A stretch of 64,000 nucleotides of DNA from Berberis thunbergii (taxonomy: Eukaryota; Streptophyta; Magnoliopsida; Ranunculales; Berberidaceae): contig QNQO01000595.1 in assembly GCA_003290165.1 (NCBI GenBank), positions 1-64,000 of the forward strand, given 5' to 3'. The notes beneath the pieces were generated by a model that was given only the letters and a program-made list of their open reading frames with translations, searched no databases and was not told where the DNA came from. The position numbers and the translations under genes were made by a program. Positions within the stretch are counted from its first letter, which is position 1; every line of letters begins with the position of its first letter. This document shows positions 1,521-44,239 of this stretch, piece after piece.

Positions 1521-2349
1521 AATCCTAAAGGAGTCTACCTCCAGTCAATGTATTTTCTCATAGGCAGGTTTGTTTAGCCCAACTTTGTAAGTTGTCTTAC
1601 TCGTAATACTTGTGAGTTACTCACCTAACTCTCATTCGATATAATAAAACCTACTCTATGTCTTAGCCTATAAAAATAAAAATAAATTAAAAAAGTCATT
1701 ACATAGAGGACCATGTAGTCGATGATTTTGACGTCTCAATTGATACCTCATTATCATTGTGCCTCAACTCTCGAACAGTAGATAGAGATGGCCCAAGATG
1801 GAGTTCATCAACCATCCCATTAGAGTACACAGTTTATGCTTCAAGCAGTCGAAATTCATCAAATAGAAATAACTTGACCAATTTGCTCTGTTGTGTCTTT
1901 TGTCGATGTTCTGCACTTTTGTACCCCAAGAATCCACTCCATACTTCATCTTCATGCTCTTTGAGTGGCCAACACAACTCCTCAAGCCATTGGTATTACC
2001 ACTATTAAAACCACCAACATCCCTAAATGGCAGACCATAAAAAGTTGAGTCACTCTTACTCATCCACAGAACATATTTGGTACAGAGCATGTTGGAGATC
2101 TTACTCATCCATAGAACATATATGGTACAGAGCATGTTGGAGATCGGAATTTGTCTGCTTGTACAAATTGCACTTCCCCTTTTTTTGGTTCTCTAGCTTG
2201 TTTACTTACAAGCACACTCTCTTGTTTTGTTGTTCATTATAATATACACTTCCATGGACAGTGTGAACATTGGTGGTATAGCAAATTGTAGTGACAAAGG
2301 AAAGAAGTTCTATTAGAAAAAAATGGAGTGGGAGACGATCTCGCTCATT

Positions 2350-2560
2350 CAAAAGAGGAATAAAAATTCACCATACAAGATTCAACTTTAGCTAACCCGA
2401 ACAGAAAACTAATTAAACTTCTCATATTCCCATATCCCAAAAGCCACGCTCCAATGCCAAATTCTTGTTTTAATAGCTGCAAAGATATGCCTTTTGTTTT
2501 CAAAGAGCGTCTTGTTCCTCTCTTCCCAAAGGATCCATGTAATCGGGTTAATAAAAAACT
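2350..2560 (-). pseudogene. LINE 3' remnant (zf-RVT-like)
   Basis: On the minus strand 2480-2550 reads as WILWEERNKTLFENKRH, the typical motif between the zf-RVT and RNase H domains of plant LINEs. Nothing longer stays open. 2561-3570 has no recognisable gene; it is AT-rich with short variants of a phrase like AATGTAAATAGCATTAA at about 3015 and 3190. Confidence 0.45.
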
Positions 2561-3547
2561 AGTCGCAAGTGCCTGCTAAGCGTGCATAAAAAATACTTAT
2601 TTCATGTTATTTATTTTCTTGATTAATTGTCCATCTTTCCACTATTTTGCATTCAATTTATATGCATTGAGCAAGTTGTTGATTTATACAAAAATGAAAG
2701 TGTTAATACTTAAATTTTGTGTATCACCGGGGTATGATTTTTTTTATCAAGTTGATTATGTAGTGATTAATTATCAATTTGTAAACATTAGATTGTTGAT
2801 TTGAATATTGGTCAAACAAAAATATTTTGAATTACGTGTTGTGTGAGACGCACGCTATTCATACCCTTAAATATTAAATGGTTTAAATCAATACATTAAG
2901 TTTTAGGTTTATTCAAAATACAATAAAAATTAGGAAAATTAAATTCATGAATAATATTGGAGGCTTAGGCTTAGGTATAATTATATAATGTTGGAGAGGG
3001 ATTGGTTTTAAATGTAAATAGCATTAAGTTGGGAGGGCAAAATAGAAAATACAAATGTTAGAAATAGGTCCTATTTATAATTTACAAATACTTGAAGGGC
3101 CTCAATAAATTATATTAGGGGCTTAGATATAATTAGCAAATGTTTAGAAGGGCTGTGGTGTAATTATATAATGCAGAAGAGGTTGAGTTTAAATGTAAAT
3201 AAAATTAAACTATAAGGGCAAAATAGGAAAGAAAATCACGTTAAAGACAATTCACTAATTGTCGTTATAACTGTTACGATATATGGCTATCTAGCAATAC
3301 ATATCAAATTAATAAACAATGAATCAACAAAAACCCACTCATCAATGGACTAGGAGAAGCCCAATGCAAAACTATACCTACAACTTCCAAATCTAACTAA
3401 GGGGAGTGAAAAAAATTCCTTTGTTAAATGATATATGCTTGTATCACACCGATGGAGAACCGGGGAAATAATTGGTTGAGACATAATGCTTGCAGGAACC
3501 GCATTTTATAAACATGTTTGAAATAAGTGACTGTATGTTTCTGTTTA

Positions 3548-27079: not shown

Positions 27080-29033
<1,954 letters not shown>

Positions 29034-31167: not shown

Positions 31168-31270
31168 GATGTGCCCCCAGCATTTCAAATTTAAGTCCTA
31201 AAATCACCTACATTCCACTGGAGTCTCCTGTACTACATCAATTACTTCCTTTTCTGCATTTGATTGAAAA

Positions 31271-31696
31271 ATGGGTCGTCTCTCAATCGTAGTAGCTCTT
31301 CTGGTGGTGCTGGTGGCCTTAGCAGAAGCGTCTTCCTACAGAACCACTATAACCACCACCAAGATAGGTGATGGGGATCGAAAGGGTGGATGGTGTAGTG
31401 GACAACTTAGTAAGGTCCGGTTGGAGGATTGCAGGCGTTACTTGCAACCAGGGAGGCAGCAATTTACCATTGTAAGAAGCAGTGATGTGCCATATGAGTG
31501 CTGTGACCAGATTAAGCAAATGGATAAGTACTGCAGATGTGAAGCAATCGAGCAGACCATGCAGCGGATCACTGGAACTGGTGGTAAACAGGGCGAGCAG
31601 ACCATGAAAGAGGTGGTGAAGAAAGCAGAATTACTGCCTAACATGTGTGGGATGGAACCTCGTTACTGCGAAATCCATCAAAGTCGAGAAGAGTAA
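31271..31696 (+). CDS. 2S albumin seed storage protein
   Basis: A 141-residue single-exon preproprotein; 2S albumins are stored in seed protein vacuoles as sulfur and nitrogen reserve. Residues 1-20 form a signal peptide (LSIVVALLVVLVALAEA). The eight cysteines follow the prolamin-superfamily pattern: C (WCSGQ), C (LEDC), CC (YECC), C-x-C (YCRCEA), C (PNMC) and C (RYC). The small subunit would be the part with the first two, the large subunit the rest, joined by disulfides. The N-terminal SYRTTITTT resembles 2S albumins of Lecythidaceae/Ericales. An AATAAA lies at 31754. The gene converges with the NAC-XH gene, 428 bp apart. The protein is less Gln/Met-rich than classical members but the fold pattern is complete. 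Confidence 0.9.
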   Translation: MGRLSIVVALLVVLVALAEASSYRTTITTTKIGDGDRKGGWCSGQLSKVRLEDCRRYLQPGRQQFTIVRSSDVPYECCDQIKQMDKYCRCEAIEQTMQRITGTGGKQGEQTMKEVVKKAELLPNMCGMEPRYCEIHQSREE

Positions 31697-32124: not shown

Positions 32125-34206
32125 CTATATGCCGCCATTTGATCTTGGACGCTTATTCATCGAAGCCTTATGCATTTCCTTCAAGATGTAGTGGATAGTT
32201 TCAGCAAGACTCGCCTTCCTATTTTCCTTAAAATTCCATATATCGGAAATCAAATGTTTCGCCATTGTATTTTTCTTCTTCACTTTATACTCCATCAGAG
32301 TTGCAGTAACAGCCTTGTATACTTCTTCTCCCCAGTCACGTTTCAGTCCTTTTAGCCGTTCATCTTCTTCATCCAGTGTTTCCTGCACATATCCGCAATC
32401 GGTAATGTACATTCATACACAATATAAATTTGCTGATATAACAATATTAGTAATGTGCAAGGTATACGATATACACACATGTGCTTCTCCAAATATTTGA
32501 ACCTTTTTGAGCGGACACCACCATGGGTCATAAATTTTCATTTTCCACATTGATATCAATTCTTGAGCTTTCAATTCTTGTTCTTCAACTGCAAACCTCT
32601 CTGAGCAGGCTTTGCGAAATGGTATCTCATTTAGACCCCATGGACGGTTTATCCAAATCTCAGTTTTGTTAATCAGTTTTGTTAATCAAGTAGGGTATGA
32701 AGTAGAGAAATAATTACCTTGTCATTTCCAGAGGCCAAACCATGGTCATCAGTTTGGGGTTGATTTGAAGCATCTCCCACAGTACTAGGAAGCACTTGGC
32801 CATCATAAGTGGAAAACATAGGCACAGCATTTCTATTTAGATGACGCACCAGCTTTTCGCGATTGGTTTTGTTATCTGCCACGACGCTGTCCCCACTCCA
32901 CCCGTTATCAACAAAAGGTCCACACAAGTTTTTCACACCACCTGAATGGCCTAGGTGACTCTTCTTGAAAATTTTACAAAGAGCAAAAGAATTCTGCAAT
33001 CGAAAATCATTTGGTTAAGTCTTTTGATGGCCACTATTTTAGAGAAAACAAAATCAAAGAAGATGAAAATATTTTACCTTACTGGAAACACCACATCTGC
33101 AGAGCTCTGATTCAGTTAAGGAAAATTCCTGCATCAACCATTCTGTACGTTCACCACTTGGAGCGCAGCCCTCATAACAATTGAATGTGTTCTTGAGTCC
33201 AACTGTTCGTGATTGGAAAGTGATTTCAGTTTCTTTGCCAGTGTTCTTCCAAAATCCATTCCCCGTTGCCATGTTCACACGATATCCTTTCCTATACTTG
33301 TTTTCCCATGCACAAAAGAAGTACCATACTTTATCCTGATTCTTTAGTACTGACTTCTCTATGAATTGTTCAAAATGAAATCGAGTTAGTTAGACTAATT
33401 CAATATCTCTGTAAAAAATAATAAACCTGAAGATAGATCATAAATTGTTTTGCATTCCTCTTTGCAACGATGACTTACCAATTGAACTTTTTGTGGAGTT
33501 AAAAAAAACACCATTATCTAGAGATAAATATTATGTTTATGTTTTGGATCTTTTGAATCTAGAAGTTGAAATTTTAGATACATCTTGAACCAATGGAGAC
33601 TAGAAAAAAAAAATTCAAAAAATAAATAAAAGGATTATTAGTAAATCATAAGGATCAAACTGAAGGTCTGTTCTTAGAGAGTTTAACTATCAACAAAGGA
33701 TGTTTCTTTCTTGCCTACTTAATTAAGAGGCTACAAGAGGATTTTCAACTTTCCATAAATAATATATCCAACAAAAAAGTTTACTCGAAATGGAAATCTT
33801 TTTTTTTTAAAGTCTAATAAATACCCTACCTGATTCTATCAGATTGTTTTTTTTTAAAAGAAAAAAGGGTAATAATTAATGTATAATTTCCTATGAAATC
33901 TTTACAAACAATTGGCATTTTCTTGCTTTGTTTGAGTCATATTTTTTGACAAAAATCAAAAAATTATGTAGTTTTTGCGACAACAATTTAACTTATGGAC
34001 TGAAAAATGAGTCTATATATAGTTACCTGGTAATTCCTCGGGTTCATATTGATACAGATCAATATCTGCAATTATAGCAAGGTTAACGCATGGGAAGCGC
34101 ATGTTTTTCCTTCTGAGATAGTATTGACAAAGCTCTTCATCAGTTGGCAAAAACCTATATCCTGGTGGGAGAAATGAAGGGTTTTTTGTTCAACAGAATC
34201 CTCCAT
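32125..34206 (-). CDS. NAC transcription factor fused to an XH domain (one base missing in exon 1)
   Basis: Five exons on the minus strand: 34206-34027, 33358-33078, 32993-32718, 32658-32479 and 32382-32125 (stop TAG). Exons 1-3 encode a NAC domain: LPPGYRFLPTDEEL, WYFF, ATGNGFWKNTGKE, APSGERTEWLMQEF and ALCKIFKK. Exons 4-5 encode a complete XH domain: GLNEIPFRKAC, a W-K...DPWW phrase, DEEDERLKGLKRDW, GEEVYKAV and IWNFKENRKASLAETI. XH is the C-terminal domain of FDM/IDN2 proteins of RNA-directed DNA methylation. All splice phases agree if one A is added to the run complementary to 34182-34187; without it the ATG frame and the NAC frame differ. The repaired product would be 391 residues (NAC about 13-165, XH about 255-380). 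Intron 3 is only 59 bp, contains TAA in frame and a 13-bp tandem repeat. Function is inferred. Confidence 0.8.
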
Positions 34207-38565: not shown

Positions 38566-39486
38566 TTTGTTAAGGGTCAAATTCTTTAAGCATAAAGGAC
38601 GGTGTGCGATTAATGAGATAGGCAGCGGTGATAATTGCTTCTCCCAAAAAATGTTTAGGGAGATGTGTTTGAAACAAAATGGCACGAACAACATTCAAAT
38701 GGTGTCTATGTTTGCGTTCCGCCATCCCATTTTGTTGGGGCGTAGAGACACAAGAAGTTTGATGGGTAATGCCTTTTGAAGCATAAAAATCAGTGAGAAA
38801 AAAATTTAAGTCCGTTATCACTGCGAATAGTTTGAATTTTGGAAGAAAATTGGTTTTCAACATAATTAATGAAAGAAATTAAGAGTGTGTGTGTCAGACT
38901 TGTGTTTCATGAGATAAATCCAAGTACATCGTGTATAATCATCAACAATGGTGAGAAAATAACGCGCTCCAGAAAGGGAAGCAACGTGATATTCTCTCCA
39001 AATGTCAACATATGATAAGGAAAAATGAGCACTACTCGAAATATGAGATAAATGAAATTTATTTCTAGTTTGTTTGGCCAAAAGACAAATAATACATTTA
39101 TTGGAAACACAAGTACTAGCATTGCGAAAAGAAACAGGAAGGAGATGAAGAGTTTTATCTGAAATGTGACATAGGTGATTGTGCCATAACACAGGGTTAT
39201 TGTCTCGAGTGATGTGACAAGTGGTGGAAGTTGTGGTGGTGGTGTCGTCCAGATAGTACAAACCATCAAGCTCAGTTGTTGTCCCAATTATCTTCCCCGA
39301 ACGAAGGTCCTGTATCAGACAAGAATTGTTGAGAAAAATGGTGAGAATGAGAGAATGTTTTGTGAGTTTGCTAATGAAAATTAAATTAAGATTAAAAGAG
39401 AGAACACAAAGAACATCATGCAAGGTAAAAGCAGAAGAAAAAGTCATGGTGCCAATGTGTGTAATAATAACGAGTGTACCATCAGG
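38566..39486 (-). pseudogene. Copia integrase, inverted segment
   Basis: Minus strand. From IPDGT and THIG near 39470 the frame runs through the GAG-pre-integrase zinc motif (H near WHNHLCHI and C-x2-C in CIICLLAKQ). It then reaches the catalytic core: D in VDIW, D in VDDYTR and E in [13 protein letters not shown]. It ends at LINRTP...FDP at the inversion breakpoint. A frame change near 38865 splits it. Confidence 0.8.
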
Positions 39487-39488
39487 AA

Positions 39489-41644
39489 TGTCACACCCTG
39501 GTTTTTGAAGAAAACGAAAATCCCAAAATCCACGTAGGATTATCCGTTTTCCCCAAAAGTTGGGACATGAATTGTCATTCACGAAAATAAAAGTTGGCAT
39601 CTACGAGAAATAATCAATTGCACAATTTACCAAATAGAGGAAAAATAAAACAATTGATCTGAAAGTCCATCAAAAGGAAGAAAATTTTAAAACTCGTAGA
39701 GCCAATGCTAACAAGTTCAACAATTTACAAATGTATCTGTCCCAGAAAATAATAAATAACTCCGAGTTCTAATTACAAGAATTAAACTGACACCTACAAA
39801 TAAAAATGATCTAATCTTTCGAACAACGCGCAACTCCCATAAATGCTCGTCACGTGATAAACATCAAGCTAAACACAAACAATACACAAACACACCAACA
39901 TGTAGTTCCCTAATGAGGCAAAAGTGTGATGCAAGAAAACACAGTTTCAAGAATTTAGTTCCTCATTGAGACCATCATATCATCATCCCAATTAAGTAAA
40001 AATGCATTTACTTATACTTCACCTATTGGAGTCGACCATGACAAGTCTGACCTGCAGAATATTAATGGACTTGCCATCCTGCATGAAAATGATTAGAAAC
40101 AATATAAACGTAATTTATTTGTTTTTATTTGAATTTGATTCAACTTTTTAACGGATTGATCACTTAGACGATACCACATTCGCACCACCTCCGTGCCGAA
40201 CATACATGCCCGTATGCCTATCTCATATAAAGGAGGACTACTCCGTCATCCATGCCCAAGTGGGGACATCACATACAGGCATGCATCGTGGATACTCCTA
40301 ACTATATGAGTACCAAAAGCCACTCTTGGGCTATCAATGCGCATAAACTCACGTCACATTTTTTATGGATAAATATCAAAGCCTATCTTAGGCATAACAT
40401 TCACCTCATTTTCGCAAGACTAACCCGAAGGTTATTTTAGTTTCTCTAGTAAGAAATGAGTACCCCAACTCCGCAAGACGACCCACTGGTCATTTAGTTT
40501 CTCTAGTAAGAGAGGGAAAATAATAAACAAAAGAGGTGTGGTAGTTCTAAGTGATACAATTTCAGGTGATTTAAATTTTCAGGAGTCAAAGTTTACCAAT
40601 AGCATTTATTTTTGATATTTCAAAATTCATCCACGATGACATTTTGTCATTTATGAATCGATTCACAATCGTATCCACCCACATTTTTAGGGAAACATAG
40701 CATTTTCATTAATCATGCTCTATAACAACATGGTGATCAAGTGACATTTTGTCATTCATAAGTAAATCAATCCACCCATTATTTTGGAAAAATATAATCA
40801 TGTCAAGATGCATACATACAGAGGAACACCATTAATCTCAAATGATCCTACATCAATAGAATCAACGAGACATCAAAACAAAACAAGCCATAGTGCAAAA
40901 TCAAACACTACTACACATAGTACTCTCCATATGAATGTGATTTTAGGGATAAACACATACATCCTAGTTTGGCAGAAAGTATCTCAAAATCTTAATCCAA
41001 CAAAGCCACTACATGCAATCTCCGAAAAGACAATTTCAATACATAAACATGAAAATGCATGACAATCATGGGTGAACACTAACTGACACCAAAGCAACCA
41101 ACCTCATTCGGCTCCAAACAATATTTTTCTTTACATCAAATGCAACTCAAGACAACCCAAGGCAGACCCTAAACAACTATGTTCCCATCCCAAAACAGTC
41201 AAACAAATAACCTTGCCAACAACACTGAAATGAACAAGCTGTCCTAACCGGACAGCTTGACCAATCATCACTCAAATGTACATAACTCTCACGTTAGAAC
41301 CCCAAATTGCATACCGCTTGGGGCAATGAAAATTAGACACCAAGAGGTTTCCAACCATATAAGGCATACCCCATGATTATGTCTATAACAATACAGATTT
41401 TACAAACAAAGCAGGCCATCAGTCAGCCTTCGGCTGATTTACCTATTGTCGCTAAAATGAGTATATCTTCCGGTACAAAACTCAGATTATGATGCTGTAA
41501 GATTCTTTAAAAACTAGACTCAAACAGAAAACTTTTGGTATATAGCATGATACTGTACTTACTCAAACCGCAATCAAAACCTTGTAGAAACCTACACAAA
41601 ATCAATCCAACTACAAGACGTCTGCTTAATGACGGGGCGTGACA
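39489..41644 (-). mobile_element. Solo-LTR-like insertion in the Copia element
   Basis: The 2.16-kb segment starts (minus strand) TGTCACGCCCCG at 41644 and ends CCAGGGTGTGACA at 39489: TG...CA ends with a longer terminal inversion, as in Gypsy LTRs. Just inside the end is ACGTGGATTTTGGGATTTTCG, another familiar LTR-end phrase. It interrupts the Copia polyprotein between NVKTAL and IPDGT, which belong together. No coding domains lie inside. The 5-bp flanks do not match cleanly, so loss of the duplication or another mechanism is possible. Confidence 0.55.
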
Positions 41645-42839: not shown

Positions 42840-44239
42840 TTACAACCTCTTCCTCCTGGCAAGCATCTGGTTGGTTGTAACTGGGGCTATAAGATCAAAC
42901 TTAATCCAGATGGTAGTGTTGAGCACTACAAAGCCCGTCTTGTGGCTAAATGATATAGTCAAGTTGAAGATATTGATTACAAAGAGACATTTGCTCATGT
43001 TGCTAAATTGACTACTGTTCGTATTCTCTTCGTCCTTGCAACCACACAGGGTTGGAATTTTATGTCAACAATGTTTTTCTTTATGGTGATCTTTTTGAGG
43101 ATGTGTACATGAGTCTTCCTTCTGGATTCGGCCAAAAGGGGGAGACTCGAGTATGCAAGTTGAACAAGTCCTTATATGGTCTCAAGCAAGCCTCGAGACA
43201 ATGGTTTGTTAAGTTATCCTCTGTTATCATATCAGTAGGCTACAATCAGTCAAAGGCTGATTACTCATTATTCGTCCTATCCAAGGGTAACAGCTTTACT
43301 GCAATTCTTGTATATGTTGATGATGTAATATTGGCAGGTAATGATCTCCAATACATTGAAGAAACAAATAAATTTCTGGCTACAAAGTTCAAACTCAAAG
43401 ATATTGGAAAATTGAAATATTTCCTTGGCATTAAAGTCGCGAGGTCATCCAAAGGAATTGCTTTATCTCAACGAAAATATGCACTTGAAATATTGGAGGA
43501 CACAGGGTATCTTGGAGCAAAGCCTTCAAGTTATCCTATGGATAAAAACTTGGTGCGCACATAAGATGTTGGAGATTTACTACCAAATCTCGCAGACTTG
43601 TTGGAAGATTGAGACCATATTTGATTTATTCAGTACATGTCCTAAGTCAATTTATGGACAAGCCCAGGATACCACATTTGGATGTTGCACACAAGGTCTT
43701 GAGGTATATCAAGGTTTCACCAAGATAGGGTATTTTTTTTCTCTTTTACCAACTCATTACAGTTGAAAGCTTATTGTGATGCAAATTGGGCTAGATGTAG
43801 AGATACTAGGAGATCCATTACAGGTTATTGTATCATGTTTGGCGATTCACCAATTTTTTGGAAAGCTAAGAAACAAACTATAGTGGCAAGATCTACAGCT
43901 GAAGTAGCATATGGGGCCATGGCTTCTACATGTTGTGAGTTAACCTGGTTGAAATACATTCTTAATTATTTGCACATTAATCATCCTCAGGCAACTCTCT
44001 TGTTTTGTGACAAAAGGGCTGCACTCCATATTGCATCTAATCCGGTTTTTCATGAGCGAACGAAGCATATAGAGATTGATTGTCATTTGATTAGAGAAAA
44101 GATACAAGAGGGTATTATTCAAACTGAGCATGTTGGAACACTGCATCAACGGCCAGATTTGTTCACTAAAGCTTTGAGCACTTATCAATTTGATAATATT
44201 TTAGTAAGTTGGGTATTACAAACATACTCTTCAACTTGA
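42840..44239 (+). pseudogene. Copia reverse transcriptase and RNase H
   Basis: Plus strand. RT begins LPPGKHLVGCNWGYKIKLNPDGSVEHYKARLVAK and has [12 protein letters not shown] and the catalytic YVDD ([12 protein letters not shown] near 43315). RNase H (43763-44239) has [21 protein letters not shown] and the ...HTKALS.. C-terminal type ending. A stop follows LVAK, and the frame changes near 43060 and 43560-43760. Confidence 0.85.

Follow-up and report, generated by a model that had tools for sequence, protein, structure and literature searches.

Predicted NAC–coiled-coil–XH gene family in plants, with apparently intact and damaged copies in Berberis thunbergii

Small RNAs and chromatin marks guide RNA-directed DNA methylation (RdDM) to its sites. 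Two described protein families lie closest to the locus reported here: the FDM/IDN2 proteins (XS-XH; FACTOR OF DNA METHYLATION) and the NAC (NAM/ATAF/CUC) transcription factors, such as ANAC019 and ANAC092 (ORE1). NAC domains bind DNA as dimers, and typical NAC factors carry an unrelated C-terminal region. In IDN2, the XH domain alone suffices to bind the paralogues IDP1/IDP2, with E600Q breaking this binding in yeast, W616A leaving it in place and both changes failing in the plant; self-pairing of IDN2 needs the coiled coil rather than XH, and some IDN2 relatives or XH proteins do not bind IDN2 (PMC3342958). A second study reports that FDDM1 binds FDDM2 via XH, that changing both W520 and E532 abolishes this interaction, and that FDM1 is bound by its own XH domain, a positive control (PMC8872474). 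A survey of 160 species lists 45 or more types of NAC chimaera, and XH is not among the second-domain names in the abstract, passages and legends covered here (PMC7147800); in passages of a further paper, NACs appear solely among the proteins predicted to bind the promoters of IDN2-like and FDM1-like genes (PMC6631971). Judged by titles and the opening of abstracts, the papers listed by our literature search include no description of a NAC protein with an XH domain, in agreement with the sequence-only reading, which knew of none, and the architecture is apparently new.

The locus described here lies in a 64,000-nucleotide window of the Berberis thunbergii assembly (C595:1-64000), within 2,239,400,495 bases in 11,732 contigs that we searched. 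The fusion resembles FDM/IDN2 proteins in its last three exons, in its junction phases and in the docking W and E as placed from spacing; unlike them, it has no zinc finger or XS domain, carries a NAC domain in front and, in the Berberis thunbergii copies, has lost the EYNPSG motif. It resembles NAC factors in matching the full NAM profile (1-122) and, for the independent protein P0014, in a predicted fold that matches solved NAC domains, and it differs from them in its C-terminal coiled coil and XH domain. As in the chimeric NAC proteins of PMC7147800, NAC is joined to a second domain; here the NAC-XH joint is backed by a second source, by selection and by an exon origin. The features of the window, several of them defined by comparison with an intact paralogue and with P0014, are as follows.

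34027..34206, minus strand: exon 1, encoding the N-terminal portion of NAC, with the NAC frame open only from 34189
33359..34026, minus strand: intron 1, 668 bp, GTAACT...CATAG
33078..33358, minus strand: exon 2, NAC DNA-binding core (PF02365, 50-122), for which solved NAC relatives exist
32994..33077, minus strand: intron 2, 84 bp
32718..32993, minus strand: exon 3, completing the NAC module; its linker contains VVADNKTNREKLV, common to P0014
32691..32717, minus strand: what is left of intron 3 at its 5' end, identical to the paralogue at 26 of 27 bases
32659..32690, minus strand: sequence that once coded within the XH exon, now including a 13-bp duplication and the deletion junction
32479..32658, minus strand: N-terminal half of XH (PF03469)
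32383..32478, minus strand: intron within XH, placed and phased as in the FDM genes of Berberis thunbergii
32125..32382, minus strand: C-terminal half of XH and stop codon
29640..30165, minus strand: two degenerate tandem copies of the XH C-terminal exon with frameshifts and stops; matching sequence also lies beside the paralogue

The three NAC exons (minus strand, 34189-34027, 33358-33078 and 32993-32718) are phase-consistent, and the two XH exons (minus strand, 32658-32479 and 32382-32125) continue in phase with them, giving 385 codons free of stops up to the terminal stop; the other two frames hold 20 and 36 stops. Single exons match NAM at E values of 4.7e-13 and 3.6e-17 and XH at 8.5e-10 and 1.3e-21, and the joined exons match NAM at 5e-35 (121.1 bits, curated cut-off 27) and XH at 2.2e-34 (118.7 bits, curated cut-off 22.2). 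The open, phase-consistent series, the Pfam scores and the stop-filled alternative frames together argue that the observation is not due to chance. The earlier description of five phase-consistent exons running from NAC to XH thus stands for the exons, their phases and both domains, but not for the NAC/XH joint, which is no normal intron. Nor is the XH domain complete, as had been proposed: it covers positions 6-128 of the 131 in the profile, its EYNPSG motif is replaced, conserved residues at the domain start are lost, and of the 24 columns with conservation of 95% or more across 122 further XH domains it keeps 15, compared with 22 kept by P0014. In the core NAC motif GYRVNRAT, the second R aligns with M in the window and is R in both the paralogue and P0014. 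Pfam searches for XS (PF03468) and zf-XS (PF03470) gave no match in the window protein, the paralogue or P0014, so the fusion has no dsRNA-binding part. Among 20 further window open reading frames, three matched Pfam, none of them NAC or XH. Pfam also marks Copia-type pieces (gag_pre-integrs, RVT_2) at 38869-39600 (minus strand) and 43007-43561 (plus strand), the latter region resembling sequence near a broken NAC-XH copy on contig C1766 (L010).

The assembly contains 51 XH matches. A search with the fusion protein (132 matches; 107 of 435 candidates scored) placed NAC and XH together at the window contig, twice on C1766 and once on C1877, and showed no second haplotype of the window copy among the scored candidates. 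One of the C1766 loci is an intact paralogue (C1766:58,635-61,126, corresponding to 6126-3635 of locus L009). Read from an in-frame ATG, its six exons of 229, 281, 279, 192, 213 and 258 bases encode 483 amino acids, with GT donors, acceptors ending in ACAG, GCAG, GCAG, CTAG and GCAG, and Pfam matches to NAM (8.9e-39, 133.2 bits) and XH (1.3e-35, 122.6 bits). Exon 4 encodes a coiled coil that aligns with that of P0014 (30% over 57 amino acids), so that the domain order is NAC, coiled coil, XH. The window and L009 share the flanking order polyubiquitin (93%), degenerate XH exons, 2S albumin region (79%) and gene, and this collinearity identifies the window copy as a segmental duplicate.

A third copy lies on both C1766 and C1877. 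Its exon 3 contains a stop, exon 4 lacks one base on both contigs, exon 6 is split on both and part of exon 2 is absent; its exon 1 was not found in the stretches read. On C1877, exon 6 is interrupted by a 5,397-bp insertion with TG...CA ends (L012 1427-6823), the exon halves overlapping by 5 bp, which is probably an LTR element. The third copy is a pseudogene.

In the window, an intact 2S-albumin-like gene (31268-31693, plus strand, PF00234 at 3.5e-12) lies between the XH pseudo-exons and the NAC-XH gene; the stretch of L009 that matches it (2151-3200) holds no plus-strand open frame above 90 amino acids. The XH pseudo-exons themselves, in tandem, alike in orientation and found beside the paralogue as well, represent an older XH exon duplication.

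The second source is P0014, a 491-amino-acid protein found in three contigs, the longest of 1,977 bp; contigs this short carrying so long an open frame suggest that P0014 derives from a transcript. It ranked first in a profile search (445 matches from 6,326 candidates, with domain make-up read for the 120 listed) and comprises NAM at 20-147 (3.7e-43), a coiled coil of FDM type (NRELQDARKEF...) and XH at 358-479 (3.5e-45). It also shares the linker DNxTNREKLVxxLN with the window (46% over 39 amino acids, E 3.7e-4). A second protein combining PF02365 with PF03469, for which the sequence-only reading had advised a search, therefore exists, but P0014 is the sole such protein among the 120 matches listed; earlier protein searches with the fusion gave both domains in 0 of 11 and 0 of 2 matches, and plasmid and viral collections gave no match. 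Other XH partners among the matches listed (P0124, P0029 and P0033) include PF14111 (Dionaea) and PF09331 (Papaver bracteatum), possibly gene-model joins.

An XH tree of 124 rows joined the window and P0014 with support of 97/83. XH branches are long, and the tree tool warned of long branches meeting in both XH trees; we did not regard the pairing of P0014 with the window copy as sufficient evidence of common ancestry, since this first tree had joined two long branches, and for the same reason each was left out in turn. In the leave-one-out trees (quick method), the window and P0014 had the same five nearest rows, and no starred set held either. An 87-row tree, in which 42 of the 124 earlier rows were left out (those above P0080, save five), five were added and values were taken from four of seven focus rows, placed the window, L009 and P0014 in one clade (100/91). 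NAC identity is 52% between the window and P0014 and 53% between P0014 and P0002, and a six-row NAC tree resolved no kinship, so that the NAC halves alone do not settle it. The structural model of P0014 has a mean pLDDT of 68.8, mostly about 90 or more across XH, with a poorly modelled NAC start and a helix at 289-345 that corresponds to the coiled coil before XH. A PDB search by fold with this model yielded nothing but NAC domains at E of 0.001 or below (13 matches, TM scores of 0.77-0.87 by target length), including the solved ANAC092 and ANAC019 domains; a search by sequence with P0014 gave five matches, four NAC and one tRNA ligase (E 0.59). No XH structure was among either set of matches. 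The intact paralogue and P0014 together indicate that NAC–coiled-coil–XH is a real gene family in plants.

How the two domains came together is suggested by the FDM genes of the same genome. In five FDM loci (L033-L037), with junctions read by eye, the coiled coil and the N- and C-terminal halves of XH occupy separate exons; the coiled coil/XH junction is in phase 0 and sits at one and the same codon in every locus (three with residue N, two with E), the acceptor of the C-terminal XH exon reads GCAG|GA in all five, and the donor of the N-terminal XH exon is in phase 0 in the four where it is in view. Exons 4-6 of the fusion break at these FDM positions and in these phases, which points to a NAC gene and three 3' FDM exons joined through introns. 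A retrocopy origin of XH is ruled out, as the introns are kept at the FDM places. A NAC gene would thus have acquired, through breakpoints in introns, the three 3'-terminal exons of an FDM/IDN2-type gene, which comprise the end of the coiled coil and the two XH exons. A segmental duplication would then have produced the window copy and its paralogue, the window copy keeping its frame, probably through selection, over a large part of the ensuing time.

Comparison of the window with L009 over 382 codons gave a dN/dS of 0.38 (NG86) and a pN/pS of 0.40 (Fisher 2e-6), indicating purifying selection. By part, pN/pS was 0.36 for NAC (p 4e-4), 0.41 for XH (p 0.006) and 0.48 for the linker (p 0.08, no significance), with introns differing at 13 of 84 and 16 of 96 sites. 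Polarised by P0014, 14 residues are derived in the window and 13 in L009, with 33 undecided, and these near-equal counts suggest that constraint probably acted on the window copy during much of its history. Within XH, the window has a terminal branch of 0.14 versus 0.038 for L009 in the 87-row tree, and six derived changes versus two, a weak hint of relaxed constraint.

By analogy with the published XH biochemistry, the earlier proposal that such a protein brings an FDM-like partner to NAC sites is plausible. The corresponding docking W and E, inferred from spacing, are kept in the window, the paralogue and P0014, with the first docking E shifted by two residues in the Berberis thunbergii copies. 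The intact protein would dimerise through NAC, perhaps also through the coiled coil, and bind NAC sites, where its XH domain could dock IDN2/FDM/FDDM-type proteins; a NAC dimer with two XH hooks would then tie factors of small-RNA-guided methylation or demethylation to particular promoters. Given that EYNPSG is absent from this genome's copies and that some XH relatives do not bind, docking may have been changed or lost.

The main rival to docking by a NAC dimer, which we hold to be rather unlikely, is that the intact fusion counters silencing, its XH domain occupying IDN2/FDM partners as a decoy without the dsRNA-binding XS, or that XH merely pairs the fusion with itself. The paralogue and P0014 do lack XS and zinc-finger domains, PF03469 stands alone in many of the 120 matches listed, and the self-binding of FDM1 through XH offers a precedent for self-pairing. 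A decoy, however, needs no DNA-binding domain, yet the NAC part is constrained, and the self-pairing of IDN2 depends on its coiled coil and not on XH.

Docking by the intact protein is a separate matter from what the window copy now encodes. The sequence-only reading had joined NAC to XH there across a 59-bp intron (32717-32659), with exon 3 ending and exon 4 beginning in phase 0. Aligned to L009, this interval is a deletion scar: its first 27 bases are the start of intron 3, fused to the inside of exon 5 at a common CCCTA and followed by the 13-bp duplication, and the remainder is former coding sequence of the XH exon, ending in GAG. In paralogue terms, 386 bases are missing from the window, namely the remainder of intron 3, the exon for the coiled coil, intron 4, and the acceptor and first 14 bases of exon 5. 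A tblastn search of the window for the coiled coil gave no further match below E 0.1, and the window copy has no coiled coil. Unspliced, the window frame runs ...GNDKVIISLLHTLLD and then stops. With the true acceptor deleted, a transcript that finds no cryptic acceptor would run into this TAA, the in-frame stop already noted in the sequence-only reading. The proposal of a single NAC-XH protein therefore holds for the family, as the paralogue and P0014 attest, but probably fails for the window copy, which most likely now encodes a NAC protein ending at the scar TAA, or nothing. On this comparison, we interpret the window locus as a damaged duplicate of an intact NAC-XH gene.

The start of the window copy is also irregular. 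The ATG at 34206 opens another frame (MEDSVEQKTLHF...) than that of the NAC domain; in the NAC frame, a TGA directly precedes TKNPSFLPPGYRF, and no in-frame ATG lies between this TGA and the NAC domain. The neighbouring polyubiquitin gene (27662-29033, plus strand) has six units, four of which encode perfect ubiquitin, units 3 and 6 each lacking one base in the window; the last unit beside the paralogue is intact. Such one-base gaps fit base-level assembly errors in the contig, but also a decaying block, and the out-of-frame ATG may be an assembly error.

It is unlikely, in our judgement, that the window copy still makes a NAC-XH protein, lacking the coiled coil and dimerised by NAC, through a cryptic acceptor. 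Of the 12 AGs in the 218 bases after the window donor, four are in phase (59, 92, 119 and 215 bp), and the 59- and 92-bp candidates would leave nearly all of XH. Both are phase-0 introns, all exons are open, pN/pS and the near-equal derived residues on both sides fit a functional copy, and the irregular start could be an error of assembly, given the two of six ubiquitin units that lack a base. Against this, the true acceptor is deleted, both candidates end in GAG, and the six-versus-two changes and the longer branch hint at relaxation in XH. GAG acceptors are rare, and 59 nucleotides is below the usual minimum for plant introns. Finally, that two neighbouring genes, or a chance neighbourhood, were taken as one is highly improbable: two stray degenerate XH exons do lie about 2 kb away and the window joint has no normal intron, but this reading, which the sequence-only reading had also rejected, is ruled out for the family by P0014, a single 491-residue protein with like order and linker, and by the paralogue with its six phase-matched exons and normal splice sites.

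The explanation that we consider probable overall combines exon joining, an intact copy, a damaged window duplicate that later would have lost the coiled-coil exon together with the splice acceptor of the XH exon, and docking by a NAC dimer. More tentatively, and with some doubt, we propose that exon shuffling created a conserved plant factor that recognises DNA sequence and serves as a dock for IDN2/FDM-type complexes, a sequence-specific entry point for RdDM or FDDM-type demethylation at selected promoters. The family offers a clean case of a new transcription factor arising by exon shuffling between two plant families, with intact, truncated and insertion-broken NAC-XH copies held in one genome. 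If the proposal is true, a transcription factor with an RdDM docking domain would form a direct bridge from promoter sequence to the RdDM machinery.
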